This document shows, one piece after another, positions 3,967 through 53,846 of a DNA stretch of 64,000 nt (its first letter is position 1; each line of letters starts with the position of its first letter). The DNA comes from Deltaproteobacteria bacterium (GTDB lineage Bacteria; Bdellovibrionota; Bdellovibrionia; Bdellovibrionales; Bdellovibrionaceae). Made by a program: the position numbers and the translations under genes. The stretch lies in assembly GCA_017302835.1 (NCBI GenBank), contig JAFLCC010000001.1:186001-250000 (forward strand), given 5' to 3'. Below the pieces are notes generated by a model. It did no database searches. It was not told the DNA's origin and worked only from the letters and a program-made list of their open reading frames with translations.

Positions 3967-6561
3967 TTAAACACTCGGAGGTGTGGCCCCAACCACGGAT
4001 ATTATCGATGGTGTTTGAAAGATTCGTTGGCTGACTCTTAAAATATCATCAGCAGTTACTTGAAAATATTTTTCAGTAGCTTTAAAAATCTCATCAGAGT
4101 CCATTCCGTAAATCACATCAAACAATATTCCCGTACAAATAGTTCCCTTTTTTTGTAAATCAATATCATTTCTTCCAGATAAATATTTTTGGGCACGTAA
4201 TAATTCTTCAGAAGCCACCGGGGTCGTACAAAGTTTTTTGAATTCTTCCTTAAGCATGGATATCGATTTATCTACTTTTTCTGGTGAACAACCAATGTAT
4301 CCCCCAAAATATCCTGTTTCTATTCCTTCCATTTTTATTGGAGATACCGAATAAGCTAAGGAGTTTTTGTCTCTTAGTTCGATGAATAATCGACCACCTT
4401 GGCCAGAAAGTATTGATTGAATCACTTCTAGGGTGTATCGGTCTTTATCTCCAAGTGGCAATCCACGATAAGCAACAACCACATGTGATTGCTCTTTCTT
4501 AAGTTCATGAAAAATCACCTTGTCTTGACTTAAATCACTTAATGGAAATTTGGATGAAAACTTTTCCCCAACGGGTATTTTTTCTATGATATGATTCAAT
4601 TCTTGAACAAGTTTTGCCTTATTAAAATCACCAACAGCACATAAATACATGTTTCCTGATTTTAAAATGGCTTCATGATAATTTTTAAAATCCTTTTGAG
4701 TGAGACGATCTAAAGATTCTTTGCTTCCTAAAATTTCTTTAGCATAAGGATGACCATGAAACATTCCTTTCATAAACTGCATTATACAAACTTGAGAAGG
4801 ATTATCGTTTTGAGACTGTATTTGATTCTTTTGTATCTGCTTTTCTCTTTGAATAATTTCTTCATCCCAAGTTGGGTTTAAAATCAGATCCCCAGTAATA
4901 TCCAGTATTTCTTGTTCATTTAAGGATAAATAATTAAGGCTCAAACCAACAGTATTACGCCCAGAAAAAGCACTTAAACTCGCTGCCATTTTATCAATTT
5001 TTTCGTTGATTTCCTGCTCTGTAAACTTAGCACATCCTGCAGGCCACACTCTTGAATAAAGTTCTGCCAATCCACCTTGTGTCTCATTTTCTAATCTGAC
5101 ACCGCCTAAAAAAGCGATTTTAAGGGAGCAAGTTGGGGTTTCCTTTTGCTCACGATAATATAATTTTATTCCTCTTTTTAAAGTGACCACTTCGGTTTTA
5201 GCTTTTGTCGCTTCCAAATTAAAATTAAATTTTAATTTTTGTGGAGCAAATTTTTTTGTTTTTCCAATATATGAAATTTCTTCTTCTAGATCTTTCACGA
5301 ATTGAGCAATGAGTGCTTTTCCTTCTGACACTGAATTTTTCGTCATCAAAACAAAGGTCATTTTTTTTGGATCCAAATATTTTTTTGCTAACTTTTGGAT
5401 GTCTTCCGGCTGAAGGGCGTAAAGTTGTCTAAGGTATTCTTTATAGTAGTTAGGATCGTTCATGTAAAACTCAAGAGATCCCACTTTTCTTGCAAGACCA
5501 TCAACGCTTTCCAGGGAATAGATTTGTTCAGAGGCAATATTTGTAATGGCCTTTTGAGTTTCTTCATGACTCGGTGGAGTTTGAATGAGTTTAATTATTT
5601 CCAATTTTAATTTTTCCAAATAGGCCGCTAAATTCTCTGGTTCTAAACTCGCAGAAACCGCAATAAGCCCTTCATCCTGTGGGGTAAAGGCAAAGGCCCC
5701 GGTCGAGTTAACGATGGGCGAATCCATTCTGAGTGACTTAACAAGTCTAGAGCTATCTCCTTGTCCAAGAATCAATGCAAGAACGTCTAAACCTGTAACG
5801 TCTTTATGCTTCACATTGGGTCCTTTGAAAGCTAAATAGGTAAGCGCTTCTTGAAATTTTGTTTCTTGAACAAGAATTTGTGTTTTAGTTTGAACTGGTT
5901 CTTTTTTTCGCACCACTTTTTTAATCTTATAATCTTTAAATCCTCCAAAATAAGATTCTATTTTTTTCTTCATGTCTGCAGAGACAAAATCCCCAGCGAC
6001 AACCAGAAACATATTTCTAGGGGCATAACGGCTATGAAAGTACTCCACTATTTTTTTTGCCGATAAGGTTTTTATGTTTTTATCATAACCAATAACGGGA
6101 ACTTTATAGGCATGATTTTTATACGCTGTTGAAAATAACATCTGGGAAATCTGTCTTTGCGGAGAGTCTTCTCCTCTTTTGATTTCTTCAATAACTACTT
6201 CTCGCTCATTATCAATTTCGTTTTTATCAAAAGTTGGATACCCCATCATTTGACTGATAACGTCTAGCCCCACATCGGAATACTGTTTTGAAATGGTGAC
6301 ATAAAACACTGTTTGATCAAAGGAAGTATAAGCATTTAATTCTCCGCCAGACCCCTCAACCGCAGAGGCTATTTCCCCCAACTTGTATTTTTCTGTTCCT
6401 TTAAATACCAAATGTTCTATAAAGTGAGAAATACCTTCTTCATTTTTTCCCTCATCTGCGCTTCCTGTTTTAACCCACATTTGAATGGAAACCACCGGCG
6501 ATTTATGGCTTTCTACAAGTAATACCTTTAAACCATTTTTTAGTTGATATTTTTTGGACAT
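3967..6561 (-). CDS. M16 family zinc metallopeptidase, double-domain (pitrilysin/processing-protease type)
   Basis: The 864-residue protein has two tandem M16 units. The N-terminal unit carries the inverted zinc motif HFIEH at residues 46-50, and the downstream glutamate of the motif lies in the NEREVVIEEIKRGED segment. The C-terminal half (about residues 460-864) repeats the fold but has GGLAELYS where HxxEH would be, so it is probably catalytically inactive and closes the chamber. No signal peptide is visible: the protein starts MSKKYQLKNGLKVLL, directly in the first beta-strand. A cytosolic peptide-degrading role is likely. It starts 16 bp from the divergent hemW-like gene. Confidence 0.92.
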   Translation of the reverse strand: MSKKYQLKNGLKVLLVESHKSPVVSIQMWVKTGSADEGKNEEGISHFIEHLVFKGTEKYKLGEIASAVEGSGGELNAYTSFDQTVFYVTISKQYSDVGLDVISQMMGYPTFDKNEIDNEREVVIEEIKRGEDSPQRQISQMLFSTAYKNHAYKVPVIGYDKNIKTLSAKKIVEYFHSRYAPRNMFLVVAGDFVSADMKKKIESYFGGFKDYKIKKVVRKKEPVQTKTQILVQETKFQEALTYLAFKGPNVKHKDVTGLDVLALILGQGDSSRLVKSLRMDSPIVNSTGAFAFTPQDEGLIAVSASLEPENLAAYLEKLKLEIIKLIQTPPSHEETQKAITNIASEQIYSLESVDGLARKVGSLEFYMNDPNYYKEYLRQLYALQPEDIQKLAKKYLDPKKMTFVLMTKNSVSEGKALIAQFVKDLEEEISYIGKTKKFAPQKLKFNFNLEATKAKTEVVTLKRGIKLYYREQKETPTCSLKIAFLGGVRLENETQGGLAELYSRVWPAGCAKFTEQEINEKIDKMAASLSAFSGRNTVGLSLNYLSLNEQEILDITGDLILNPTWDEEIIQREKQIQKNQIQSQNDNPSQVCIMQFMKGMFHGHPYAKEILGSKESLDRLTQKDFKNYHEAILKSGNMYLCAVGDFNKAKLVQELNHIIEKIPVGEKFSSKFPLSDLSQDKVIFHELKKEQSHVVVAYRGLPLGDKDRYTLEVIQSILSGQGGRLFIELRDKNSLAYSVSPIKMEGIETGYFGGYIGCSPEKVDKSISMLKEEFKKLCTTPVASEELLRAQKYLSGRNDIDLQKKGTICTGILFDVIYGMDSDEIFKATEKYFQVTADDILRVSQRIFQTPSIISVVGATPPSV

Positions 6562-36426: not shown

Positions 36427-38728
<2,302 letters not shown>

Positions 38729-38730
38729 AA

Positions 38731-40260
38731 TTATTTCTTCTGATTTACTTGGAAGATAGATTTAAATTCAATCAATGCATCCTGAAGTAGCTTTTCGTTA
38801 TCCTTTGTAAGTTCTTTTTTCTCAGAAACTGATTTTAATATCCCTGAATGTTTGTGTTTTACAAATTCAAGCATTTCTTTTTCATATCTTCTCACTTCAA
38901 TTTCTGGATATTCATCTAGAAATCCATTGGTAGCTGCATAAATTGATAAAACCTGATCTTCAACTTTTAATGGTTGGTACTGACCTTGTTTCAACAATTC
39001 AACAAGTCTTCTTCCTCTGGCAAGTTGTCGTTGAGAAGCTTTGTCCAGATCAGATGCAAAAGCCGCAAAAGCTTCAAGGGCTCTGTATTGTGCTAATTCT
39101 AGTTTTATAGTTCCCGCAATTTTTTTCATTGCTTTGATTTGGGCAGCCCCACCAACCCTGGACACCGACTTACCAACCGAAATAGCTGGACGGACTCCTT
39201 TATAAAATAAATCCGTCTCAAGAAAAATTTGACCATCGGTAATTGAAATTACATTCGTTGGGATATATGCAGAAATATCTCCTGCCTGAGTTTCAATGAT
39301 GGGAAGTGCGGTCAACGAACCTGCACCTTTGTCATCCGATAACTTGGCCGCTCTTTCAAGCAATCGAGAGTGAAGATAAAACACATCCCCAGGGTAAGCC
39401 TCTCTACCTGGAGGTCTTCTTAATAACAATGATAATTGACGATAGGCCTGAGCTTGTTTAGTTAAATCATCATAAATAATTAAAGCATGTCGACCCGTGT
39501 CTCTGAAGTATTCAGCCATAGCTGTTCCAGAATACGCTGCCAAAAACTGAAGAGGAGCTGCATCTGATGCGTTTGCCGCAATAACCGTAGTATATTCCAA
39601 TGATCCCGCTGCTCGCAGTTTTTCTACCACCAAAGCAACGGTTGATTGTTTCTGCCCAATTGCCACATAAAAACACTGAACGTTTAGTCCTTTTTGATTA
39701 ATAATCGTATCAATCGCAATCGCCGTTTTTCCCGTTTGTCTATCGCCAATGATAAGCTCTCTTTGTCCTCTTCCAATGGGGATCATTGAGTCAATAGCTT
39801 TGATGCCCGTTTGCAAAGGTTCATGAACGGGTTGTCTATAAACAATTCCAGGAGCTTTTAACTCAACAACTCGCGAGTGAGGAGTATTCAAAGGACCCCT
39901 TCCATCGATCGGATTTCCAAGCGCATCGACAACCCTTCCCAAAAGGGCTTCGCCTACGGGAACCTCCACAATCTTTTTCGTCCTTTTAACTGTGTCGCCT
40001 TCCTTGATATATCTATCTTCACCAAATATAACGACACCAACATAACCTTCTTCTAAATTTAGTACCATTCCTTGAACGCCACTGCTGAACTCAACAAGCT
40101 CACCAGCCTGCACATTTTCTAATCCATAAACCCTGGCAACACCATCTCCAACAGAAAGAACACTTCCAGCTTCGCTAACTTCTATTTTTTTTGAGAATTG
40201 ATTTATTTGCTCCTTAAGAACTCTGCTAATTTCATCGGCTCTAACCTGATTCATATCCAT
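38731..40260 (-). CDS. atpA: ATP synthase alpha subunit
   Basis: This non-catalytic nucleotide-binding F1 subunit has 509 residues. [15 protein letters not shown] is the P-loop, and the signature [17 protein letters not shown] is intact. GGAG nine bases upstream supports ATG 40260. It lies between atpH and atpG. Confidence 0.98.
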
Positions 40261-40277
40261 TGTAACTTGCTCCTAAA

Positions 40278-40817
40278 TTAGTGATTTAATAATTTTTCAT
40301 TTAATTTTTTTAATTGCGTGTCAAGACTATCATCAAAAGTCCATCCACCAACTCTTGCTATCACACCCGCAATCATCGAAGGGTCCTCACTTGCTGATAA
40401 CACAATTTTTTTCTTAAGTACTTGAGTTATTTTACTTTCTAATAAGGCCAAAGATTCCTTCGAAAGGGGTTTGGCGGAAGTAACAAATCCTCTCGTAACC
40501 CCATTGTTTTCATCTACAATAGCCTCAAAAACTTTTACAATCTCAGGAAGCAAGGACATCCTTTTTCGGTCCAATAGAAGATTAAAAAAGGAACTGAGCT
40601 CTGGGGCGAAACTGGTGTCAGAAAAAATTTTATTAATCGCTTGTTTCTTGACGGACAAGGACACGTTAGGGTTGTTAATAAATTCTTTTACTTCTTTTTT
40701 TTCCAAAGCAAAGTTAATTGTTCTTAATTGATCAAATATTTTTTCTTGTGAATTACTTTCTTTGCTTATGGCAAAAAGAGATTTTGCATATCTTTTGGAA
40801 AGATCAACTTTACTCAT
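40278..40817 (-). CDS. atpH: ATP synthase delta subunit
   Basis: The delta subunit links the peripheral stalk to the top of F1. The 179-residue protein has the N-terminal helical bundle (LSKRYAKSLFAISKE) and the C-terminal signature IAGVIARVGGWTFDDSLD. Its start overlaps the end of the upstream b-subunit gene by 4 bp. Confidence 0.95.
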   Translation of the reverse strand: MSKVDLSKRYAKSLFAISKESNSQEKIFDQLRTINFALEKKEVKEFINNPNVSLSVKKQAINKIFSDTSFAPELSSFFNLLLDRKRMSLLPEIVKVFEAIVDENNGVTRGFVTSAKPLSKESLALLESKITQVLKKKIVLSASEDPSMIAGVIARVGGWTFDDSLDTQLKKLNEKLLNH

Positions 40818-41437
40818 GGATTTGTCGCCTCAATATTTTTATTAAAATCGGATTGCAATCTCAAATGGTCTTGCGCCCCAATATCTTTTGTTAGAAGACC
40901 TTTAGCCAATACTATGGAATCCAGCACAAGCTTCTTCTGCACCGATTGATAGGCTTTTTGCGCTTCAATTTTAATTGATAGCAAAGTCTCTAATCCAATT
41001 TTGTGGGCAGACTCCTCGGCCTCTTTTATAATATTTTTTTTCATTTCCATAGCTTCTAGTCTGGCCCTAGCTATACTTTCATCGGAGCTGTTTTGCAATA
41101 TCTCCAGTCGATGTTTAATATCGTGATATTCTTTTTCAGCCTCAAGATAAATAGCTTTAGACTTTTCCGCCTGACTTAAATAGTCTTTTTGTTTTTGGTC
41201 GAAATAATTTTTTATTGGAATTTTTGTATACTTATAAATGATTAAAAACAAAACTCCAAGATTAAAAAATTGCCAAAGAATAACAGATGGAATTTCATTT
41301 GAGTGAGCTCCCGTGTTGGCTTCTGCGAAACTATACCCACTTAAAAAAAATAAATAAAAACCCAAACTCTTCACTGTTAATTTTATTGTTAAATAACTTT
41401 TATTATTCATTCTATTGTTTATATCAATGTTCGTCAT
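40814..41437 (-). CDS. atpF: ATP synthase b subunit (second stator subunit, with N-terminal extension)
   Basis: The peripheral-stalk subunit has 207 residues. After a signal-peptide-like extension (GFYLFFLSGYSFAEA) comes the membrane helix (VILWQFFNLGVLFLIIYKY) and a long charged coiled coil (DQKQKDYLSQAEKSKAIYLE). The extension suggests the N-terminus may be exported or cleaved, as in some b subunits with an extra hydrophobic stretch. It starts at TAATG, overlapping the b' stop by 1 bp. Confidence 0.9.
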   Translation of the reverse strand: MTNIDINNRMNNKSYLTIKLTVKSLGFYLFFLSGYSFAEANTGAHSNEIPSVILWQFFNLGVLFLIIYKYTKIPIKNYFDQKQKDYLSQAEKSKAIYLEAEKEYHDIKHRLEILQNSSDESIARARLEAMEMKKNIIKEAEESAHKIGLETLLSIKIEAQKAYQSVQKKLVLDSIVLAKGLLTKDIGAQDHLRLQSDFNKNIEATNP

Positions 41438-41865
41438 TATTTGCCCAACATCTTATTGGTTATAGCTAGGACAATTCCTGGCTTAAGAGTCTCTAGATCT
41501 TTTTGAATTTTTCCAACTTCATCTTCATTAGTTTTTCGGTTTTTTTCAATCAGCTGTCTTGCCTCTTCTCTGGCTCTGTTAATGATTTTATCATACTCAT
41601 TAGTGGCCTCTGCTTTAACAACCTTATAAATTTCAGAGATAACCGAGTGAATTTCTCTCGCTTTTACTGAATATTCCGAGTGCAATTCTATAGATTTTCT
41701 ACCAATTTCATCTGCTATTTCAGCGCTCCCCAAAGTGCGCTTTTGTCTTTCTAGAAGAGCTTTTGTAAAGGGTTCATAAACTAGTTTAATAAGCGCAAAA
41801 AATGTAATTATAAATATAGCAAATTGAATCAATGACGTCGAATTTATACCCAACTGATTTAGCAT
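41437..41865 (-). CDS. ATP synthase b' subunit (first stator subunit)
   Basis: The 142-residue protein has one N-terminal membrane helix (SLIQFAIFIITFFALIKLVY) and a charged coiled coil containing LLERQKRTLGSAEIAD. Together with the next gene it makes a b/b' heterodimeric stalk, as in photosynthetic and some deltaproteobacterial synthases. It is the first gene of the F1 operon, 113 bp after the bactofilin gene. Confidence 0.9.
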   Translation of the reverse strand: MLNQLGINSTSLIQFAIFIITFFALIKLVYEPFTKALLERQKRTLGSAEIADEIGRKSIELHSEYSVKAREIHSVISEIYKVVKAEATNEYDKIINRAREEARQLIEKNRKTNEDEVGKIQKDLETLKPGIVLAITNKMLGK

Positions 41866-41978
41866 GCATTTTTCCTATAAAATTAGGGATTAACGTTTTG
41901 TTTGCATTGCTGAGATATCATCTTTAAAATTATTTTGCAAAAATTATTTTTGTAGAATTATATCAATTTCTATCCGTA

Positions 41979-42329
41979 TTATGTGGCGGGCATATAAGAG
42001 GCGCCTTCAAAAACAACACCTTCATCAATTCTTAAACTTGGCGATGTGACCGTCCCTCTAAAAATTGTTGGTGGATGCATGACCACCCTTTTTCTTGCAA
42101 AAACATTTCCTTCAACTTTACCACTTATTATAATTGTGTCTGCTTCAATTTGTGCGGTAACCTCAGCGCCTTCACATATAACCAAAGTATCATTAGTGAA
42201 AATTTCTCCCTTAAATACTCCACCTATCTGAACTGTCCCTTCAAAGGCAAGTTTTCCCTCGAAAGAGGCCCCTTTATCTAGAATTGCTGTTACCTGTTGG
42301 CTATTTGTTGTTTGTTCTATAGTTGACAT
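41979..42329 (-). CDS. Bactofilin
   Basis: This 116-residue polymer-forming cytoskeletal protein is made almost wholly of the right-handed beta-helix bactofilin domain (GKLAFEGTVQIGGVFKGEI; VEGNVFARKRVVMHPP; FRGTVTSPSLRIDEGVVFEG). Its start lies inside the end of parB (13-bp overlap), so it is translationally coupled to parAB. In Myxococcus, bactofilins scaffold the ParAB machinery, which makes a segregation role plausible here. Confidence 0.93.
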   Translation of the reverse strand: MSTIEQTTNSQQVTAILDKGASFEGKLAFEGTVQIGGVFKGEIFTNDTLVICEGAEVTAQIEADTIIISGKVEGNVFARKRVVMHPPTIFRGTVTSPSLRIDEGVVFEGASYMPAT

Positions 42330-43381
42330 CCTGCTTTTAGCTTATCAATAATTCCCGTGAGTTCCTCATCTGAATAAAAATAGATACTCAGTTTTCCTTT
42401 TGTCCCATTGTAATCAATATTTACCTTTGTTCCAAGAAGCTTTTGCATCTCTTCTCCTAGACCGTTTATCAGTCGATCAGACAAGGAAGATTGCAATAAC
42501 GTATTGTCTTTACTCTCTGATTTATTTTCTGGAGATTTCATTGCTAATTTTTCAAGCTTTCGGACGCTTATTTTTTCATTTTTACATAAATCTGCCAATT
42601 CAATTTGTCTATTTTTGTCCACAACACTTAACAAAATTTTTGCATGACCAACTGAAATATCTGAATTTTCTATATATTTTCTAATCTCTATCGGTAATGC
42701 CAAAAGCCTGATGGCATTACTTACGGAAGACCTGTCTTTGCCGACCTTTTCAGCAATTTGTTGATGAGATAATGAGAACTCATTTATAAGGCGCGAGTAA
42801 CCTTCTGCCTCTTCTATAGGACTAAGATCTTCTCTTTGAATATTTTCAACAATAGACAATTCAAGGGTTTCTTTGTCGGTGTAGTTCTTAATCAATACAG
42901 GAACCTCATGAAGTCCTGCCGCTTGAGCCGCTCTCCAGCGCCGCTCTCCAGCTATAATTTCAAAACCCTCATCTTTTTTTCTGACAATAATGGGTTGTAA
43001 GATTCCACTTTGTTTTATTGATAAAGACAATTCTTCAATTTTTTCTTTATTAAATGTCTTTCTTGGTTGGTAGGCTCCCGGTTTTAGTTTTTCTACACTT
43101 ACCTTCCAAACCTTACCGTCCGTATTAAGTCCCTGGATAGCCACGGAGTCTTTGGATATTCTATTTGTTTCAATTTTATTCTGTTCTTCTGAGTTTTGAA
43201 TACCCAACCGAGCTGAAATAGCTCTTTTTTTTGATTCATTGTGATTTTGATGACTACTCAACTCTTTGTGACTATCCAATCTGGATAGTCCACTTGATAG
43301 TCCACCTGAACCATCTCCAAGCAAAGACCCCAATCCTCTTCCTAATCCTCTTTTTTTAGAATCAGCATTTAAATCAGACAC
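42317..43381 (-). CDS. parB: Chromosome partitioning protein ParB
   Basis: ParB is a CTP-dependent clamp that loads at parS and spreads on DNA near the origin. The 354-residue protein has an N-terminal basic leader (KKRGLGRGLGSLLG, the ParA-activating type), the CTP-binding motifs GERRWRAAQAAG and ENIQREDLSPIEEA, the helix-turn-helix HQQIAEKVGKDRSSVSNAI, and a C-terminal dimer domain. It overlaps the parA end by 8 bp. Three parS sites lie 0.9-1.5 kb upstream. Confidence 0.97.
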   Translation of the reverse strand: MSDLNADSKKRGLGRGLGSLLGDGSGGLSSGLSRLDSHKELSSHQNHNESKKRAISARLGIQNSEEQNKIETNRISKDSVAIQGLNTDGKVWKVSVEKLKPGAYQPRKTFNKEKIEELSLSIKQSGILQPIIVRKKDEGFEIIAGERRWRAAQAAGLHEVPVLIKNYTDKETLELSIVENIQREDLSPIEEAEGYSRLINEFSLSHQQIAEKVGKDRSSVSNAIRLLALPIEIRKYIENSDISVGHAKILLSVVDKNRQIELADLCKNEKISVRKLEKLAMKSPENKSESKDNTLLQSSLSDRLINGLGEEMQKLLGTKVNIDYNGTKGKLSIYFYSDEELTGIIDKLKAGCQL

Positions 43382-44195
43382 TTAAATCACCAACCCCTTC
43401 TATTTCACGGTTTTTATGACTCTGAGCGTTGGCGTACTTGTTTAATACCTCTTTGGCCAGCTCTAAATATTTAATGGCACCTATCGATTTTCCATCATAA
43501 TCAAATATTGACTGCCCATGACTTGGAGCTTCGCTTAACCTTACGTTCCTTGGTATAATGGACTGAAATACTTTTTCTCCAAAATGGTTTTTGATTTCTG
43601 TCACTACTTGATGGCTTAGATTGTTCCTTGTATCAAACATAGTAAGGACGATTCCTTCAATGTGTAGCTCGTGGTTTAATGATTTTTTAATTAAACCGGC
43701 AGTATTCAAAAGTTGACTCAATCCCTCAAGAGCATAATATTCGCACTGCAGAGGAACTAAAAAACTATTGGCTGCGGTTAGCGCGTTTAGAGTTAATAGC
43801 CCTAAAGATGGTGGGCAATCTATAATAAAATAGTCAAAATGATCCGATATGGCCGCAATTGCTTGTTTTAATTTATATTCTCTTTGTGGGATATCTACCA
43901 ACTCAATTTCAGCACCAACCAAATCAGGATTTGCCGTAACAATAAACAAATTTGGATCTTTTGTCTTTAAAATGGTCTCGGCAATTGATTTTTCTCCAAT
44001 TAAAACATGATAAATATTGTTTTCTTGGCACTCATATTTTTTAATACCAAGACCACTGGACGCGTTTCCTTGTGGATCCATGTCTAAAAGTAATACTTTT
44101 TTACCAAGTAATGCCAGCGCGGAGGATAGGTTTACTGAAGTTGTTGTCTTACCCACCCCTCCTTTTTGATTTGCAATGCATATCGTTTTTGCCAT
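43374..44195 (-). CDS. parA: Chromosome partitioning ATPase ParA
   Basis: This 273-residue deviant-Walker ATPase moves ParB-parS complexes over the nucleoid. KGGVGKTTTSVNLSSALA is the deviant Walker A motif, and LLLDMDPQGNAS and FIIDCPPSLG are the following switch motifs. It is the first gene of the parA-parB-bactofilin run, with a parS site about 110 bp upstream of its start. Confidence 0.97.
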   Translation of the reverse strand: MAKTICIANQKGGVGKTTTSVNLSSALALLGKKVLLLDMDPQGNASSGLGIKKYECQENNIYHVLIGEKSIAETILKTKDPNLFIVTANPDLVGAEIELVDIPQREYKLKQAIAAISDHFDYFIIDCPPSLGLLTLNALTAANSFLVPLQCEYYALEGLSQLLNTAGLIKKSLNHELHIEGIVLTMFDTRNNLSHQVVTEIKNHFGEKVFQSIIPRNVRLSEAPSHGQSIFDYDGKSIGAIKYLELAKEVLNKYANAQSHKNREIEGVGDLSV

Positions 44196-44307
44196 TAATG
44201 TTCTCCAATGGAAGGAAATTGTAGTGCGAGTTAATTAAAGATATAAATTTCGCTTAATTCAACATTTTTTTTGTTTTTTCACTTATGCTTTGTGTCTTTT
44301 ATTCCGA

Positions 44308-44323
44308 TGTTCCACGTGGAACT
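44308..44323. other. parS site 1
   Basis: The perfect 14-bp palindrome GTTCCACGTGGAAC (44309-44322) matches the bacterial parS consensus core. It lies in the divergent gap between parA and the lipoprotein gene, so ParB bound here could also affect both promoters. Confidence 0.93.
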
Positions 44324-44338
44324 TGGTTTTAGGAAAAA

Positions 44339-44893
44339 ATGTATTTGAACTTTAATTTTTTTGTCACATTGAAACTTCTCTTGTGTTCCACGTGGAACAT
44401 CTTGATCCTTTTTTTTCTGATGTTTTTATTGGGCTGCAAGAAAGATGATCCGAATCCTGAGTTAAAAGACAAAATCTATCTAGATTTAGTAAATCAAGAA
44501 GCTATCGAGCTTAAAAAAATTGAGGATAGCGTGGCAAAAATTCAAGAAATATTAAAATCATTAGAAAAAAGTAAACCACAAACTGGGGACATCAAAAGAA
44601 ACACCATAAAACTTCATGATTTTGAAAATATAAAAATAAAACAGCAGCAGCAATTGAAAATGTGGAGAATTCTAAAATTTGAGCGTCTTAAGTATGTCAG
44701 AAAATCAAGGTTGGCCCTAGATGAAGATTCTTGGAATAAAACTTCAGAACATGAATTTGAAAAGTACTATGCAGAAAAAAAATTAATTCGATCTAAACCT
44801 TATTGGGATATTAAAGACAGATTCAAAGAAAGCGGCTATAAATTTGACCCTACTCTTTTGGGTGAAGGAATTAAAACAGAAGAAAAAAAATAA
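44339..44893 (+). CDS. Small lipoprotein of unknown function embedded in the parS cluster
   Basis: The 184-residue protein has a hydrophobic N-terminus and the lipobox LLGC (cysteine 33). The mature part is highly charged and helical (KKIEDSVAKIQEILKSLEKS) with Lys/Glu-rich segments. I recognise no family. AGGA four bases before ATG 44339 supports this start, which puts parS site 2 inside codons 16-21 of the signal peptide. The protein therefore carries the unusual stretch CSTWN in its hydrophobic core. The gene runs opposite to parA and is flanked by parS on both sides. Confidence 0.75.
   Translation: MYLNFNFFVTLKLLLCSTWNILILFFLMFLLGCKKDDPNPELKDKIYLDLVNQEAIELKKIEDSVAKIQEILKSLEKSKPQTGDIKRNTIKLHDFENIKIKQQQQLKMWRILKFERLKYVRKSRLALDEDSWNKTSEHEFEKYYAEKKLIRSKPYWDIKDRFKESGYKFDPTLLGEGIKTEEKK
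44384..44399. other. parS site 2, inside the lipoprotein coding region
   Basis: TGTTCCACGTGGAACA is a perfect 16-bp palindrome that fits the parS consensus fully. It is translated as Cys-Ser-Thr-Trp-Asn plus the first base of Ile within the predicted signal peptide of the lipoprotein gene. Confidence 0.95.
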
Positions 44894-44902
44894 AATATCT
44901 AA

Positions 44903-44918
44903 TGTTCCACGTGGAACA
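44903..44918. other. parS site 3
   Basis: TGTTCCACGTGGAACA, identical to site 2, fills the 25-bp gap between the convergent lipoprotein and rsmG genes and abuts the rsmG stop codon. Confidence 0.95.
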
Positions 44919-45581
44919 TTAAATCTTCGTAGTTGCAATAATTGCAAACTTAACAGGAACAACGGGAAGCCTATATTCTTTAACTAAAGCAGGTTCCCAA
45001 ATAGAGCAAAGTTGAATAGGAATCTCACTCACTTCCAGTCCCCACTGTTCGCTTTTCATATGAAAATAAGTGCCTTTTTTAGAAAAACACTTTCTAGCTA
45101 CAAGGATTGATTTAGAAATATTTGCTAATCCTCTTGATACTGCAAACTTCACAGAATCCTGTGGCAAATTTTCAATTGTAGAATTAATTGTAAAAACATT
45201 ATCTAGATGTAAATTAGAAATAACATGTTTCAAAAACTCAATCTTTCTGGCATCTGAATCAATCAAAGTAACCTTTAATTTTCTATTTAAAATTCCAAAA
45301 ACCAAACCAGGAAAACCATTTCCACTTCCAAAATCATAAATATGATCAATATGAGGAGAGTGCTCAGCGATAATGCGTTGGGCCATAATTGAATCAGAAA
45401 AATGAAGAGAATCTAAAAAGGGAATTGTCTTCGGTCCAACCAAATTAATTGTTTTGTTAAACTTAATAAGAATATCTGCATATAATTTCAATGCCGAAAT
45501 TGCCTTGTCCTCGATGTCGGGGAACCATTCTTTGATTTTCCAACTATAGGTTGAACTGTCTTCAACTGGATTTGTGCTCAT
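44919..45581 (-). CDS. rsmG: 16S rRNA (guanine-527 N7)-methyltransferase RsmG (GidB)
   Basis: RsmG uses S-adenosylmethionine to methylate G527 of 16S rRNA. The 220-residue protein has the SAM-binding motif DFGSGNGFPGLV and LIDSDARKIEFLKHV, with NLVGPKT in the N-terminal region. It lies 9 bp after mnmG, the usual neighbour. AAGGA precedes the ATG. Confidence 0.95.
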   Translation of the reverse strand: MSTNPVEDSSTYSWKIKEWFPDIEDKAISALKLYADILIKFNKTINLVGPKTIPFLDSLHFSDSIMAQRIIAEHSPHIDHIYDFGSGNGFPGLVFGILNRKLKVTLIDSDARKIEFLKHVISNLHLDNVFTINSTIENLPQDSVKFAVSRGLANISKSILVARKCFSKKGTYFHMKSEQWGLEVSEIPIQLCSIWEPALVKEYRLPVVPVKFAIIATTKI

Positions 45582-45590
45582 AATACATCC

Positions 45591-47489
45591 TTAAAGAATT
45601 TGATCAGACTTTTTTGAACCGTGTCCTTTAATATATATTACAATAGCTTGAATTGCGGAAGGATTAACACCACTTATGCGTTGAGCTTGGCCTAAAGTTA
45701 GTGGCTTAATTCGAGACAATTTTTCGATCTCTTCTCTCGATAATCCTTTAACCAAACTGTACTCAATATCCTTAGGAATTTGAAAATTTTCCGACAAAGC
45801 CATCTGATTGATTAATTCAAGTTGCCTTTTAATGTAACCAGAATACTTAATTTCAATTTCAATTGATTCTAAAATTGATGGTGATAACTTTAGATCTGGA
45901 AAAAACTCAAAGATAACATCATTAGAAATTTCAGGACGTCTCAGGAACTCTTCTAAGCTAATTGATTTCAATAATACCGATGTATTTAGTTTTCTCAATT
46001 TTTCTTGCGTTTCACCAGTCGGAGTTAAGCGAAAATTCTTAATATTTTCAATAGCTTGAGCTTTATTTTGTTTATCTCTTTGAATTTGATCTAACTCATT
46101 CCTACCAAGCAAACCAATATTTTTAGAACACTCATCTAACCTATCGTAAGTATTGTCTTCTCTTAAAACCAAACGATGTTCGGCTCTTGATGTGAACATC
46201 CTATAGGGTTCACTTGTACCCTTGGTAACTAAATCATCTATAAGAACTCCGATATAAGCTTGATCCCTTTTTAACACCAATGGCTCTTCACTTAAAATGC
46301 TTCTTGAGGCATTGATTCCAGCTATTAAACCTTGGGCTGCTGCCTCTTCGTAACCAGAAGTTCCATTAATTTGCCCAGCTAAAAACAAATTTCTAATAGG
46401 CCTTGATTCTAAACTGTGTTCAATCTGAGTTGGTTCAAAGTAGTCATACTCAACAGCATACCCATACCTAGCCACTTTAACATTTTCCAATCCAGGTATA
46501 GTTTGTAGAAACTCTTGCTGAATCCCCTCGGGTAAAGAAGTTGAAATACCCTGCAAATAAATTAAATCACTCTCTAAACTCTCTGGCTCTAAGAAGGTTT
46601 GGTGAGAATCCCTATCAGAAAATCGAGTAATTTTATCCTCAATACTTGGACAATATCTAGGCCCAATGCCTTCAATAATGCCACAAAACATTGGCGATTT
46701 ATCGAGGTTTTTCCTGATAATTTCATGAGTTTGTTCTGTCGTTCTGGACAAAAAACAAGTAACTTGTGGTAAGACTGGAAAATTTTTTGTTTTTAAGCTG
46801 AAGGGAAAAAACTTATTATCTCCATATTGAGGACTCGTTTTTGACCAATCAATAGAATCCTTCAAAAGTCTTGCTGGAGTGCCTGTTTTAAGTCTTTTAA
46901 CCGAAAATCCAAAATCTCGCAGCTGATCAGATAACCCGATCGAAGACTTATCCCCGATTCTCCCACCTGCAATTTGTTTCAATCCAAAGTGCATAACTCC
47001 ATTCATAAAAGTTCCTGTAGTCAAAATCACCCTCTTAGCATGAACAAAAGAATGATCTTCTAGAACAACCCCTTCACACAAATTACCATTGAGAATCAAA
47101 GATTTAACTTCTGATTCCAGAAGAGACAGGTTCTCTTGAGAGTCTAAAATTTCAATCATTCTTCTGGAATACTTAATCTTATCAGATTGAACCCTTGATC
47201 CTCGCACAGCAGGACCTCTAGATGAATTAAGCCTCTTAAATTGAAGACAGGTCTCATCAGCGACTTGGGCCATTTGACCACCAAGAACATCCAGCTCTCT
47301 GACCATATGTCCTTTGGCCAAACCACCAATACTCGGATTACAGCTCATGTATCCGATTCTGCTAAGATTTGATGTAACTAGCAACACCTTGTGCTGCAAT
47401 CTAGAGCAGGAAAGAGCTGCCTCAATCCCCGCATGGCCTCCGCCAACCACTATAATATCAAAATCACTTTTTCTTCTCATAGTTTTCAT
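45591..47489 (-). CDS. mnmG: tRNA uridine-5-carboxymethylaminomethyl modification enzyme MnmG (GidA)
   Basis: This FAD-dependent enzyme works with MnmE to modify U34 of certain tRNAs. The 632-residue protein has the dinucleotide-binding GGGHAGIEAALSCSR, the GidA signatures GPRYCPSIEDKI and AGQINGTSGYEEAAAQGLIA, and a helical C-terminus that binds MnmE. It lies between mnmE and rsmG on the same strand. Confidence 0.98.
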   Translation of the reverse strand: MKTMRRKSDFDIIVVGGGHAGIEAALSCSRLQHKVLLVTSNLSRIGYMSCNPSIGGLAKGHMVRELDVLGGQMAQVADETCLQFKRLNSSRGPAVRGSRVQSDKIKYSRRMIEILDSQENLSLLESEVKSLILNGNLCEGVVLEDHSFVHAKRVILTTGTFMNGVMHFGLKQIAGGRIGDKSSIGLSDQLRDFGFSVKRLKTGTPARLLKDSIDWSKTSPQYGDNKFFPFSLKTKNFPVLPQVTCFLSRTTEQTHEIIRKNLDKSPMFCGIIEGIGPRYCPSIEDKITRFSDRDSHQTFLEPESLESDLIYLQGISTSLPEGIQQEFLQTIPGLENVKVARYGYAVEYDYFEPTQIEHSLESRPIRNLFLAGQINGTSGYEEAAAQGLIAGINASRSILSEEPLVLKRDQAYIGVLIDDLVTKGTSEPYRMFTSRAEHRLVLREDNTYDRLDECSKNIGLLGRNELDQIQRDKQNKAQAIENIKNFRLTPTGETQEKLRKLNTSVLLKSISLEEFLRRPEISNDVIFEFFPDLKLSPSILESIEIEIKYSGYIKRQLELINQMALSENFQIPKDIEYSLVKGLSREEIEKLSRIKPLTLGQAQRISGVNPSAIQAIVIYIKGHGSKKSDQIL

Positions 47490-47536
47490 CTCATTGAAGT
47501 CAATTTTTAATGTTAATTATTGCAAAAATCCAGAGA

Positions 47537-49117
47537 CTATTTACCTAAACAGAATTCTTTGAAAACTTTATCTAAGATTTGATCGTCATAAACGATGCCT
47601 AATATGCTTTGAATACTCAAAAGAGCTTCCTTTAAATCAAGTGCTATAAATTCATGTCCCAATCCATTGCCAACGGCTAGCTTGGTCGATTCAATAAAAT
47701 GAAGACTTTTCACTAAAGCATCTTTCTGTCTACTGCTTGTTACTGACGTATTATCAATATGACTACTCAAATCAACCCAACTCTGCATCACTGCATTTAA
47801 AATATATTTACGAGAAGATAAATCAAAAGTGCTACAAAAAATGACATGCACAGAAATCCAACTTATCAAATCTTGATATGTTTTAAAATTAAATTGTAAT
47901 TCTAAATAGTTAAACAACGAAACTATAAATTGAAATAAGCATGGCTCGTTAAATTGCTGGCGAAAATCAGAAAAAAACTCTTCTTTAGAGGCAAATTTAG
48001 AAATATTCTGCCAATAATTTCTTAAAAATTCAGTTTGCTGAGGGTTAAGGCTCAAATCAATCTTATTTAAAATTAAAAATGTCGAATTCAAATCAAATTT
48101 AGAAAACAAAGAAAACGATTCTTGATTAAAGGACTTATTCCTTTCCTGAGCGGGATGACCAAAACAATCAGAAAAATCAAAAATAAACATATTAACCTGA
48201 GCTTCATCTTGTTCTCTAAAAGTCCTTTCAATTCCCATTTTCTCAATAATATCATCAGTATTATTTCTGATACCCGCAGTATCAACTAAGATAAATCGAA
48301 TACCCTCATACAAAAAATCTTCTTTAATTACATCTCTCGTCGTTCCCGCCACATCAGTAATAATTGATCGATTTGTTTGCAATAGTAAATTCATCAAACT
48401 AGATTTTCCGGTATTTGGTTTACCACTTAAGGTAATTTGAACACCATCAGAAATCATCTTTCCAAATTTAAATGAATGAACTAGCTCTGTAATTTTGGTT
48501 TCTATTATGTCCAACTTGTTCAGCAATGTATGATCTTGAATAATCTCTATATCTTCTGAAGAAAAATCAATGCTTGCCTCAATATGAGCTAAACACCATA
48601 AAATTTCATCTTCAACTTTTTTAATCGCAGAAGAAAGATCCCCTTTTAGCTGACGTAGTGCCAATTTTGCAGAAAGTTCTGATTTAGAATGAATGGCAGA
48701 TAAAACACTTTCTGCTTGAATTAAATCAAGTCGATTATTCAAAAAAGCCCGGTAGGTAAACTCACCACGATCTGCTACCCGCGCACCGTGAAAACAGAGC
48801 TGATCCAGTATAAGCTGACAAATAGTCGGAGAACCATGACAAGAAATTTCTACCACTTCTTCCCCAGTAAAAGACTTTCCATCTAAAAAAACAGTTATAC
48901 AGACTTCATCAATAAGGACTAAAGATAAAGAGTTAATAAAATTGGCCAAAAAAACCCTATGACTTTCGACAATTTTAGGGGGGTTTTTAATCGATTTTTG
49001 AACAATTTTAAGAGCATCAATGCCGCTAATCCGAATAACTGAGATGCCGCCAATTCCATTTGGAGTAGAGACCGCACAAATTGTATCTTTATCTCTTACC
49101 CCTAAATACATACTCAC
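47537..49117 (-). CDS. mnmE: tRNA modification GTPase MnmE (TrmE)
   Basis: The partner of MnmG has 526 residues. It has an N-terminal tetrahydrofolate-binding domain, a G-domain with GKPNTGKSSLMN, DTAGIRN and NKID, and the C-terminal C-x-G-K motif (FCLGK). The GTG at 49117 overlaps the jag stop by 4 bp; an ATG two codons later (49111) is an equally good start. It is somewhat longer than the usual 450-460 residues because of an insertion within the G-domain. Confidence 0.96.
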   Translation of the reverse strand: MSMYLGVRDKDTICAVSTPNGIGGISVIRISGIDALKIVQKSIKNPPKIVESHRVFLANFINSLSLVLIDEVCITVFLDGKSFTGEEVVEISCHGSPTICQLILDQLCFHGARVADRGEFTYRAFLNNRLDLIQAESVLSAIHSKSELSAKLALRQLKGDLSSAIKKVEDEILWCLAHIEASIDFSSEDIEIIQDHTLLNKLDIIETKITELVHSFKFGKMISDGVQITLSGKPNTGKSSLMNLLLQTNRSIITDVAGTTRDVIKEDFLYEGIRFILVDTAGIRNNTDDIIEKMGIERTFREQDEAQVNMFIFDFSDCFGHPAQERNKSFNQESFSLFSKFDLNSTFLILNKIDLSLNPQQTEFLRNYWQNISKFASKEEFFSDFRQQFNEPCLFQFIVSLFNYLELQFNFKTYQDLISWISVHVIFCSTFDLSSRKYILNAVMQSWVDLSSHIDNTSVTSSRQKDALVKSLHFIESTKLAVGNGLGHEFIALDLKEALLSIQSILGIVYDDQILDKVFKEFCLGK

Positions 49118-49668
49118 TCTTGAGAAGTTAAATCGTCTTTTTGTGAACCAAAATTTTTTGCAGGAAATATTTTAATTTTTTTATATAATCCATCACCAAG
49201 AGATCTGCTTTTAACTCTTTCGTCCTTCGAAAGATACTGATGAACCACTTTTCTTTCCTTAGGAGGAAGGGCGCGGTAATAAACTGCTTTATTTTGCTCA
49301 ATGGCAATTGTTTTTAAATTTTCAGCTCTTTCTATTAAAGCCTGTTCATTCTCTTCTCTATACCCACCACAATCTACATTGATATTTGTTTTATCGTCTG
49401 GAATTTGATGCTGAACCACGCGTTTTAATATAAGCTGAAAAGAATCTAAAAGCTGACCCTTTCGATCTTTAAATAACTCTTCATCGGCTCCAGAAAGCTC
49501 AATATGAATTGATTTGTTTTCAGCGTCTTCGCTTTCAGATAAAAAAGTGTATTCTAAATTAAATTGACCATACTCAATAAGACCCTCAAGAGTACTGCGG
49601 ACAAGGGATTCTACAGGACCATCTTCACTCTTTTTTCCGCCTCCAAAAAGTTTTTTAAAAAAATTCAT
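49114..49668 (-). CDS. jag: Jag/KhpB-type RNA-binding protein (KH-R3H)
   Basis: The 184-residue protein ends in an R3H domain (ERAENLKTIAIEQNKAVYYR...LPPKERKVVHQYLSKDERVKSRSLGDG), with a KH-like domain before it. The family binds RNA and is nearly always encoded beside yidC. It sits between yidC and mnmE and overlaps mnmE by 4 bp. The N-terminal FFKKLFGGGKK is a short Jag-N-like start. Confidence 0.88.
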   Translation of the reverse strand: MNFFKKLFGGGKKSEDGPVESLVRSTLEGLIEYGQFNLEYTFLSESEDAENKSIHIELSGADEELFKDRKGQLLDSFQLILKRVVQHQIPDDKTNINVDCGGYREENEQALIERAENLKTIAIEQNKAVYYRALPPKERKVVHQYLSKDERVKSRSLGDGLYKKIKIFPAKNFGSQKDDLTSQE

Positions 49669-49704
49669 TACCTAGCTCCTCTCGTTATTACATCATTAAA
49701 TAAA

Positions 49705-51378
49705 TCAAATTTTTGTTACTACGGCCTTATTACTTTTTAACATAAAATACTGTTGAGTGATTCCAAACAATCCACTCACAAACATATAAAGAGTCAATCC
49801 GCTTGGAAGATTAAGCATAAAAACGGACATTACTAAAGGCATATATAATAATATTTTTGCCTGAGCCGGATCCATATTTGTTGGAGTGATTTTCTGTTGA
49901 GTAAACATGGTGGCTCCCATTAAAACAGGTAAAACATAAAATTTATCGTGAGAGCTTAAATCTGTTATCCAAAGCATAAAAGGACTTTGATATAACTCGA
50001 TACTCGAGCCAATCACCCTATAGAGTGCAAAAAATATTGGAATTTGTAACAACATAGGTAAACAGCCTCCAAATGGATTTGCTTTATTTACCTTCATTAA
50101 TGACATAATTTCTTGATTCATACGTATGGGATCTTCTTTATATTTTTCCCTAATAGCTGTCATTTCTGGTTGAATTTTTTGCATGGCTTTCATTGATTTC
50201 ATTGACATCAAATTAAAAGGTAAAACAAATAATCTTACCAACAATGTTAAAAGAATAATGGCAACACCCCAGTTAGAAATCTGTGCGTAAAACCATTTCA
50301 TGGTAAATAATAATGGTTTTGCAATGAATCCTAGCCATCCAAAATTAATAATACTTGTAAGTTCATCGCTGATAGCACTCAAAATTGTGATCGATTTAGG
50401 GCCAGCGTAAAACACTTGTTTTATGGAAAGTTCTGCTTTTCCAGGCAAGACGGGGTAAACAAGCTCTCCAAGTGCCGCCGATTCGTTAATTAATACATTT
50501 AGTTTTGCATCTGGCAACAAATCAGACTTATCTAATATGGCTGTTGCAAAATATTGGTTTCCAACAGAAAGAATATTAGCCGTCTTAATTTCTTGGCTTA
50601 AATTTTCTTTAGCTGAAGAAAAATTAACCGATGTTGTTTTACTCGCGTGTGAAACGTAAAAATCTTGATGTTCATAGGAAGGAAATAACCAGGATTGACT
50701 TTCTGGAACGTTAATTTTTTCAGGAATTAATACTTTAATATTTTGTATGTTTTTATCATTTAAGCCAGATAAATTAATCTGGCTATCAAACGAATTATTT
50801 GATTCGTTATAGATAATTTCCCGATTAACAATAAGGTCATCAATTTTTGCAATCCCTTTATAGTGCCCCTTTGCAATTTCACTCATTTCGAAATAAACTA
50901 TCTTATTATCTGCGAATCTAAACTCAAACAAACCAGCCAAAGCAGACTGGCCAAGTAAAATTGGTTTATTTTCTTTATCCGTATAAGAATTTACTTTTAA
51001 ATTAACTAGACCCATTCCTTTATTTGAAATCTCAAAAGAGAGCTCTTTATTTTCAAAAGTAAACTTCTTTTCTTCAACAAATTTGTTGTCCGTTTTAAGA
51101 TCGGAATTTTGAGATTTACCATTACCACCTTGTCGATCTGCTTTTCCTTTTGAAAATTCAGCACTTGAGGAGCCACTCTCTAAATCAGAGGTCTGAGGGC
51201 GTTCTTGATTTTTGAGTTCCGTATTTATCTGAGGAGACTGGGCCGTCTGATTTTTTTTACCAAAATCAGGATACTTTTTTTGAAGATAAGAATTCCAGCC
51301 AAAATAAAATAGCGCAAAAATAATCATCGCCATTAAAAATCGACTGTTAAACGGATTAGTTTGTTGCTGTTCTTGCAT
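49705..51378 (-). CDS. yidC: Membrane protein insertase YidC
   Basis: YidC inserts and folds inner-membrane proteins, including ATP synthase subunit c. The 557-residue Gram-negative form has an N-terminal helix (FLMAMIIFALFYFGWNSYL), a large periplasmic domain, and a five-helix core (WGVAIILLTLLVRLFVLPF; GGCLPMLLQIPIFFALYRV). AAAGGA precedes ATG 51378; a longer frame to 51420 overlaps yidD and has no family match. Its start overlaps the yidD end by 23 bp. Confidence 0.96.
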   Translation of the reverse strand: MQEQQQTNPFNSRFLMAMIIFALFYFGWNSYLQKKYPDFGKKNQTAQSPQINTELKNQERPQTSDLESGSSSAEFSKGKADRQGGNGKSQNSDLKTDNKFVEEKKFTFENKELSFEISNKGMGLVNLKVNSYTDKENKPILLGQSALAGLFEFRFADNKIVYFEMSEIAKGHYKGIAKIDDLIVNREIIYNESNNSFDSQINLSGLNDKNIQNIKVLIPEKINVPESQSWLFPSYEHQDFYVSHASKTTSVNFSSAKENLSQEIKTANILSVGNQYFATAILDKSDLLPDAKLNVLINESAALGELVYPVLPGKAELSIKQVFYAGPKSITILSAISDELTSIINFGWLGFIAKPLLFTMKWFYAQISNWGVAIILLTLLVRLFVLPFNLMSMKSMKAMQKIQPEMTAIREKYKEDPIRMNQEIMSLMKVNKANPFGGCLPMLLQIPIFFALYRVIGSSIELYQSPFMLWITDLSSHDKFYVLPVLMGATMFTQQKITPTNMDPAQAKILLYMPLVMSVFMLNLPSGLTLYMFVSGLFGITQQYFMLKSNKAVVTKI

Positions 51379-51592
51379 TACATTTCCTTTCAGGGACAGG
51401 ATCATATCCAAATGATCCAAATGGATGACATTTTGACAATCTTCCCAGTGTCATTTTTAAAGCACATAAAAAATCATGTTCATTAAAAGCCTCTTTGGCA
51501 AACTCAGAACAAGAAGGAATAAATCGACAATTACCACCTAAAAATTGAGTTCCAAAAGTTCTATAAGAACCAATAAAAAACAAAGCACACAT
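51356..51592 (-). CDS. yidD: Membrane protein insertion efficiency factor YidD
   Basis: This small amphipathic protein helps YidC-dependent insertion. The signature NCRFIPSCSEFAKEAF and the closing KCHPFGSFGYDPVP are typical. The start is uncertain: ATG 51592 gives 78 residues; TTG 51610 would put the CRF motif at the usual position near residue 30; ATG 51691 would overlap rnpA by 47 bp. None has a clear ribosome site. Confidence 0.88.
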   Translation of the reverse strand: MCALFFIGSYRTFGTQFLGGNCRFIPSCSEFAKEAFNEHDFLCALKMTLGRLSKCHPFGSFGYDPVPERKCNARTATN

Positions 51593-51644
51593 TTTAAGTG
51601 TCTTGTTCAAAAAATTTTTGAAGGTACAAAAAAATTTTAGCTGT

Positions 51645-52019
51645 TTAGAGTTTCGTGAATATCCGGTTTTTTTCAAGTTGTTTGATTCCATGATTAAAAG
51701 CTTTAAGAAAAGTATCAAAACTCATATTTTTGTAAAAATCGCTTTTCATGGGTTTAATAAAAAAAGTCATTTTAGTTTGAACCAAGGGTTTACTTTTAAG
51801 ATATTTAGCAATTTCAGATCTAACCCATCTTTTAATTTTATTTCGAATAACAGCATTTCCAGCTTTTTTACTTATGGAAATACCTAATTCAGAAATCGGT
51901 TTATTCGCCCTCATAAACGATATAAGCATCCAAGAAGATGCCCACACTTTTTGACCATTATTTTTTAAATCAAGAAAATCCGAGTTCTTACGGATAGATA
52001 GATAAGGTTTACTTACCAC
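51645..52019 (-). CDS. rnpA: Ribonuclease P protein component
   Basis: The 124-residue basic protein assists the RNase P RNA in tRNA 5' maturation. The RNR-type motif [17 protein letters not shown] is diagnostic. It starts with GTG at 52019, inside the last codons of rpmH (11-bp overlap), so translation of the two is coupled. Confidence 0.93.
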
Positions 52020-52445: not shown

Positions 52446-53846
52446 ATGCCAATTAATTCTCATTTTTGGGATCAAATTAAAACAAATATGAAAAGCAGAA
52501 ATTTAAATAACAAACTGTTAGATACTTGGCTTGACCCAATTGAATATTTAAACACCATTAGTACAAATGACCGACCAAAAATTCAACTTGGTGTCCCGAA
52601 TGCCTTTCATCAATATTTTGTTATAGAAAACCTTCAGGATAAAATTTACACAGAGATTTCAAATATTTATAATTCATCTTTTGAGGTTGAGTTTGTTGTG
52701 ACTGGCAACAAAAATATGGCTCATCCCGAAAGTCCACAAGCGCTCGAAGAAGCGATTTTGAATCAAAATACTCGGCAGTTTCCTCAACAAATCAGTAGGG
52801 AAAAAAATATCAATTCAGATCCCTTAAACCAAGAGCTCACCTTTTCTACTTTTGTAGTAGGAAAAAATTCGGAATTTGCCCATGCTGCCTGTTACAATGT
52901 AGCTAAACATCCTGGAGGTCATGATTATAATCCTCTTTATATTTATGGACCTGTGGGGATGGGTAAAACACATCTTCTTCATGCTGCTGGAAATTATATC
53001 CGGGATCAATACCCTCAGGTAAAAATTACATATATTTCCGCTGAACGGTATATGAATGAGTGCATAGCCTCCATAAGACACCATCAAATGGATAAGTTTA
53101 GACTTAAATACAGAGAAAATTCGGATATTTTACTTGTAGATGATGTTCAGTTTATTGGGAAAGGTGAGGCCGTTCAAGAGGAGTTTTTTCATACGATTAA
53201 TACCTTTATCGATCGAAAAAAACAGGTTATTTTAGCCTCAGATAGGATGCCAAAAGATATTATAGATCTGGAGGATAGAAATAGAACGAGGCTTGAGCGT
53301 GGATTAATTGCCGATATTACCATGCCTGATTTAGAAACTCGAATTGCTATCTTAAGGTATAAAGCTGAAAAATATAACGTTAGAATGTCAGAAGATGTCG
53401 TCAATCATATTGCAAGAATTTCTAAAAGATCAATTAGAGAATTAGAGGGAAATTTAAAAAAGGTAAAAATGTTTTCTGAATTGCAAGGTTTGCAAATTGA
53501 TTATGATTTAGTAAAAAAAATATTATCAAATCATGAAACTCAAACGATGATAAGTATTGAGGAAATTCAAAGAATTGTTGGTGACCATTTTAAAGTCCGA
53601 GTGCAAGACTTGAAATCTGCAACCAGATCTAAAAATATCGTTGTTCCGCGTCAGATAGCTATGCATTTTATAAAGAAATTTTTAGATAAATCTCTTGTTG
53701 ATATTGGAAAAGCTTTCGGTGGTAAAGATCACACGACCGTAATGAATGCCATTGAACGAGTTAAATATCTACAACAGACGGATCAAGATATGTTTAAGAA
53801 TATTGAAGAGTTAGAATCTAGAATCCACAATATCACAGGTGTGTGA
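52446..53846 (+). CDS. dnaA: Chromosomal replication initiator DnaA
   Basis: DnaA is an AAA+ protein that binds DnaA boxes and melts oriC. The 466-residue protein has the domain I helices, a linker, the Walker A GPVGMGKTHLLHAAGN (about residue 170), the sensor and box VII arginine region, and the domain IV signature GGKDHTTVMNAIERV. It reads away from rpmH, and oriC follows its stop directly. GAGAGGAAATAA precedes the ATG. Confidence 0.98.
   Translation: MPINSHFWDQIKTNMKSRNLNNKLLDTWLDPIEYLNTISTNDRPKIQLGVPNAFHQYFVIENLQDKIYTEISNIYNSSFEVEFVVTGNKNMAHPESPQALEEAILNQNTRQFPQQISREKNINSDPLNQELTFSTFVVGKNSEFAHAACYNVAKHPGGHDYNPLYIYGPVGMGKTHLLHAAGNYIRDQYPQVKITYISAERYMNECIASIRHHQMDKFRLKYRENSDILLVDDVQFIGKGEAVQEEFFHTINTFIDRKKQVILASDRMPKDIIDLEDRNRTRLERGLIADITMPDLETRIAILRYKAEKYNVRMSEDVVNHIARISKRSIRELEGNLKKVKMFSELQGLQIDYDLVKKILSNHETQTMISIEEIQRIVGDHFKVRVQDLKSATRSKNIVVPRQIAMHFIKKFLDKSLVDIGKAFGGKDHTTVMNAIERVKYLQQTDQDMFKNIEELESRIHNITGV

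Follow-up and report, generated by a model that had tools for sequence, protein, structure and literature searches.

The parS centromere region of the Bdellovibrionia is best explained, in our analysis of a 64-kb stretch of DNA (hereafter the window) and of its relatives, as a centromere built around an attack-phase gene, in which the RNA polymerase carrying sigma-28 and the ParB protein would be mutually exclusive at the parS site on the 5' side of the gene; we give this reading, drawn from sequence, a probability of about one half. The arrangement suggests that one and the same stretch of DNA serves either the activation of a hunting-phase gene or the assembly of the centromere, and not both. 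Its most informative feature is a sigma-28 promoter, which was absent from an earlier sequence-only reading of the locus. B. bacteriovorus is a reported exception in that ParB does not mark its centromere throughout, with a Bdellovibrio-specific factor beside parS being proposed; the joining of a sigma-28 promoter to the 5' parS across a family provides a named candidate for this factor, a target of five bases and a prediction for both partners. If true, it would be a direct physical link from the transcription programme of a developmental phase to the assembly of the segregation machinery, and an uncharacterised lipoprotein of a whole bacterial class gains a context that bears on its function.

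A motif search of the window found exact copies of GTTCCACGTGGAAC at 44309-44322, 44385-44398 and 44904-44917, in agreement with the earlier description of three parS copies around one lipoprotein gene beside parAB, and no further site in the window even when up to 3 mismatches were allowed. These three copies are also the only exact parS in the 3.63 Mb genome, where the reversed-pattern control gave 0 exact matches; sites with two mismatches, 4 in the genome compared with 6 for the control, are at background. The sequence fits the 16-bp-type palindrome TGTTNCACGTGNAACA of chromosomal ParABS centromeres, and the sites are not scattered but lie near parAB and oriC, at 114 bp from parA. Together with the lipoprotein gene, they sit between parA (43374-44195, minus strand; AAA_31, E=1e-67), which is accompanied by parB (42317-43381, minus strand; ParB_N/HTH_ParB/ParB_C), and rsmG, also called gidB (44919-45581, minus strand; GidB, E=7e-36). 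The dnaA gene (52446-53846) is about 7.5-8.1 kb from the parS sites, and the GC skew changes sign there. Because exact parS is unique to this locus, two-mismatch sites stay at background and dnaA and the skew switch are close by, the parA-rsmG interval is, as far as sequence can show, the chromosome's single ParB-loading centre. That dense parS would act as such a centre had been proposed before, and it is borne out by the restriction of exact parS to this locus, both in this genome and in almost every relative, as well as by the binding of the B. bacteriovorus parS by ParB in vitro (PMC10547168). In that homologous system, binding by the cognate ParB comes with CTP-dependent spreading (PMC10547168).

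The three sites differ in their setting. The 5' parS (44309-44322) lies upstream of the ATG and begins at the sixth base of a promoter -10 element. The inner parS (44385-44398) is genus-specific and is read in frame as C-S-T-W-N within a long signal peptide, a feature shared by all five genus members having the locus (the window and L025-L028). The 3' parS (44904-44917) is 10 nt past the stop of the lipoprotein gene, between its stop and the convergent one of rsmG, and is contained in a hairpin of 12 bp followed by a T-rich tail (44897-44924, minus strand), which is terminator-like for rsmG. Exact parS was found in 36 of the 40 genomes sampled from the order, and every copy lies within the parA-lipoprotein-rsmG locus; genomes with one or zero exact copies mostly carry near-copies GTTCYACGTRGAAC at the corresponding places. 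The usual layout is one parS where the lipoprotein gene begins and another just past its stop, between the convergent genes, the latter often a single base from the stop codon. L206, which we take to be B. bacteriovorus HD100, shows two parS framing bd3907. At both sites of L047 (4929, 5414) and in L039 (5311) parS is symmetrically altered to GTTCTACGTAGAAC, which may reflect tolerance on the part of ParB or a change in its specificity.

The gene framed by these sites (44339-44893, plus strand) encodes 184 aa with a signal peptide and the lipobox LLG-C33, whose Cys33 is invariant in the alignment, and a likely Shine-Dalgarno AGGA (44331-44334, plus strand) stands 4 nt before the ATG at 44339. 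It is the homologue of B. bacteriovorus bd3907, which is listed as an unknown protein in the interval holding two parS (PMC10547168). Homologues occur in 35 of the 40 genomes sampled from the order, in 49 of 54 members of the order in contrast to 0 of 138 other genomes in a sample of the phylum (split counted by hand from the result table), and in all three sampled genomes of the sister order (L239-L241), where they were found by reading the loci. A search of relatives for the same gene between parA and rsmG, which had been recommended, thus finds it across the class at this fixed position, so that it is by no means special to one genome, and in all loci read it is opposite in strand to both parA and rsmG. 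The dN/dS of 0.01-0.06 between closest relatives indicates strong purifying selection, and synonymous sites along the gene display no clear hidden constraint. Loci with a decayed 5' parS, such as those of L046, L049 and L054, still carry the gene. Its direction is head-on to replication from the origin, which suits use while the chromosome is not replicating. It is the only plausible plus-strand gene between about 37.8 and 52.4 kb, as judged for the stretch to the left of the origin (37847-52019).

Assignment of a function by family or fold was given up, as no usable match was found and a helical hairpin is too generic for Foldseek. The window protein (P0001) has no credible match to a Pfam, NCBIfam or PDB family, one Pfam match being at E=0.49; its relatives have weak and inconsistent family matches only; and its AlphaFold2 model, consisting of a signal helix and a confidently predicted helical hairpin (pLDDT 81.7), gave no fold match in Foldseek at E<=0.001. 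One genome of the same genus (G003, 99% complete) has neither a lipoprotein match nor any parS, exact or with one mismatch, probably owing to a gap in the assembly at the locus. At position 4460 of L059, a promoter-like element and parS are kept and no lipoprotein homologue was detected alongside.

Regarding the promoter, 92 of the 140 attack-phase promoters that Karunker et al. (PMC3627812) mapped in B. bacteriovorus have TTAAG-N16-CCGATA, a FliA/sigma-28 type motif, and by the same study the sigma-28 holoenzyme is the main attack-phase polymerase. In the window, TTATG (44283-44287)-N16-CCGATG (44304-44309) on the plus strand agrees with this published consensus at 9 of 11 positions and with its spacing. 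The same picture is seen in the relatives, where the 5' parS is flanked by a constant CCGAT directly before it and by TCAAG, TTATG or the like 16 nt further upstream. Within the parA-lipoprotein interval, a score of at least 8/11 is reached on the gene strand by 35 of 37 loci and on the reverse strand by 5 of 37, and the mean score is 8.62 against 6.93 in shuffles, though these loci are related by descent and the counts are not independent events. When spacers of 9-23 were scored in 40 loci, N16 alone was enriched, with 23 loci at 9/11 or better and 0-4 for the other spacers; at this threshold the reverse strand has no N16 promoter in any of the 40. In 23 of 37 loci, the distance from the first base of CCGAT to the start of parS is exactly 5 nt. 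This fusion of CCGAT with parS is present, once per genome, in 50 of 58 genomes of the window's family and in 3 of 61 other genomes (both tallied by hand from the result table). Other families, like the sister order, mostly have the promoter just downstream of parS, which then abuts its -35 side, and in most loci, from 10 families and the sister order, the promoter and some parS are within about 55 bp of each other in one of these two arrangements. In L049 and L054 the promoter is still present though the 5' parS has decayed.

FliA itself is encoded in the window genome (G000:C8:158898, 277 bits). Of 40 genomes, 38 have a FliA that scores above the family cut-off; the remaining two are 83-86% complete. 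In the window genome the exact consensus is no more frequent than its reversed control; a single site is therefore weak, the case rests on conservation, and no genome-wide regulon is claimed. The strength of the case lies in the spacer specificity, in a consensus published independently and in the two arrangements of both elements. It is well supported by sequence that the lipoprotein gene is driven by a sigma-28/FliA attack-phase promoter, the phase of expression being a prediction, and transcription would be expected to start at about 44314-44318, i.e. within the 5' parS palindrome.

Since the -10 element and parS share one base and the expected start is within the palindrome, polymerase and ParB should exclude each other. 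In attack phase, the sigma-28 polymerase would occupy the promoter or fire it repeatedly, the lipoprotein would be made and the 5' parS would not be free for ParB. In growth phase, sigma-28 activity would drop, ParB would load at the 5' parS, and its clamps would cover the roughly 550-bp gene and shut the promoter. The 5' parS would then be a two-state switch coupling centromere assembly to the phase of the cell cycle. The sequence-only reading had supposed that the gene may be silenced or linked to the cell cycle, and a promoter of attack-phase sigma-28 form overlapping parS gives both ideas a concrete basis, the silencing itself being a prediction. We propose more tentatively that in the Bdellovibrionia centromere and developmental promoter have become one: the sigma-28 polymerase would be a gate barring ParB from the chromosome in attack phase, when there is no replication, and ParB for its part would repress, in growth phase, an attack-phase lipoprotein that occurs throughout the class.

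Published observations bear on this proposal from both sides. In attack-phase B. bacteriovorus, ParB foci formed on a bare plasmid parS and not on one with native flanks, foci appearing later in growth, from which the authors inferred a Bdellovibrio-specific factor acting via DNA beside parS (PMC10547168). As the main attack-phase form of polymerase with a promoter in the 5' flank, sigma-28 is an obvious candidate at the 5' parS, where it would supply part of the missing factor. The shut-off of the promoter by ParB in growth phase, which we infer by analogy, would have a precedent in KorB, a ParB-family clamp that occludes RNA polymerase at promoters (PMC11790492). Against the proposal, both extended parS fragments (242 and 330 bp) show the attack-phase block (PMC10547168), and no conserved sigma-28 promoter accompanies the 3' parS in the relatives' loci, so that sigma-28 alone cannot explain both. 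In E. coli, moreover, ParB formed foci on extended parS (PMC10547168), which counts against the proposal given the FliA of that host, although N16 and TTATG may suit E. coli FliA poorly. It also counts against the proposal that parS and promoter are usually adjacent rather than overlapping outside the window's family.

The behaviour of both fragments is handled better by a one-way scheme, in which ParB at the 5' parS represses the lipoprotein gene in growth phase, the sigma-28 polymerase has no effect on the centromere, and the attack-phase block is due to another DNA-binding protein or to local topology at both sites. It draws on the identical promoter-parS overlap and on the same KorB precedent for repression by a ParB-family clamp. 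We regard it as possible and, on balance, rather unlikely, as it requires a second factor and the alignments show no motif common to the flanks of the 5' and 3' parS. Somewhat less probable still is mere inherited proximity, with parS and the sigma-28 promoter conserved separately in a short parA-lipoprotein interval and occupied independently of each other. The synteny is conserved class-wide, and the fixed promoter-parS spacing could thus be simple inheritance; several families have the two elements adjacent without overlap, and attack-phase cells contain little ParB in any case (PMC10547168). What weighs against independence is that the approximation to within about 55 bp recurs across so many families in two arrangements, and that steric exclusion of two proteins on common base pairs is hard to avoid.

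Two further readings concern the gene rather than the promoter. The lipoprotein might be a segregation or polar-anchoring partner, framed by parS to stay linked to parABS, as its fixed parA-rsmG position across the class and the strong purifying selection on it would allow. This we consider improbable: the lipoprotein signal puts the protein outside the cytoplasm, away from ParB and DNA, and a promoter of this type points to expression together with surface and motility genes rather than with parAB. The idea that the gene is retained solely as housing for the parS sites, also raised by the sequence-only reading, has in its favour that many species have parS immediately next to the gene's start and stop, and yet it can hardly be upheld. 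A dN/dS as low as that of the closest pairs argues that the gene is not retained merely to house sites, its protein is conserved order-wide, it outlasts an intact 5' parS, and elsewhere in the phylum (L242, L243) parS stands beside parA and rsmG without any such gene.

In comparison with known systems, the B. bacteriovorus parABS locus (PMC10547168) has the same gene order (bactofilin, parB, parA, unknown gene, rRNA methyltransferase) and an identical parS, with parS1 and parS2 framing bd3907 as in the window, which differs by having a third parS, read in frame within the signal peptide. For one species, the two parS on either side of bd3907 were already known; that report calls the gene 'unknown', with no mention of FliA or of a lipoprotein. 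The B. bacteriovorus FliA promoters (PMC3627812) have in common with that of the window the TTAAG-N16-CCGATA type, the spacing and the short distance to the start codon, and differ in that the last base of the window's -10 element also belongs to the ParB site; no overlap of a FliA promoter -10 with a ParB site is described in the literature searched. Nor did the papers searched describe the promoter-parS fusion, its spread, or a class-wide lipoprotein framed by parS. The likeness to the KorB operators of plasmid RK2 (PMC11790492), where RNA polymerase is kept from a promoter by a ParB-family clamp, is one of function only, since KorB works with KorA on plasmid promoters whereas in the window it would be the chromosomal ParB at the centromere itself, where the polymerase would also be able to exclude ParB. 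With the usual mnmG-rsmG-parAB layout the Bdellovibrionia share parS near oriC and parAB and close to rsmG and parA, but in them rsmG and parA are separated by a lipoprotein gene of opposite orientation with parS on either side.

Several other interpretations of the sites were tried and rejected. An RNA hairpin formed by parS (a stem of 5 bp) and hiding the ribosome-binding site was dismissed because the predicted start is inside the palindrome and the pair-breaking variant GTTCCACGTAGAAC is common, which together fit selection on parS as DNA, not RNA. On the strand running from rsmG toward the 3' parS, an N16 signal occurs in 13 of 50 loci; a second sigma-28 promoter within rsmG was nevertheless discarded, the signal being a coding echo of conserved RsmG codons (VKF..VVKTDK) that does not preserve the CC of the -10 element. 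CCGAT as part of an extended ParB site was likewise rejected, given that the 3' parS lacks it and other families have CCGAT apart from parS. In a scan of the whole collection for CCGAT-parS, the matches listed were mostly due to chance, parS being universal, and only the extra homologues among them were useful. In L033, CCGAT is found on both strands around the 5' parS (5015-5038; CCGATGTTCCACGTAGAACATCGG).

Elsewhere in the window genome, contigs G000:C3 and G000:C8 hold at least eight flagellin-like genes, at least two of them with upstream sigma-28-like elements having N15 rather than N16, namely CTCAAG-N15-CCGAT before one flagellin gene and TTAAG-N15-CCGAA before another. Similar motifs are found 8-36 nt before ORFs of secreted or lipoprotein-like proteins in the same genome.
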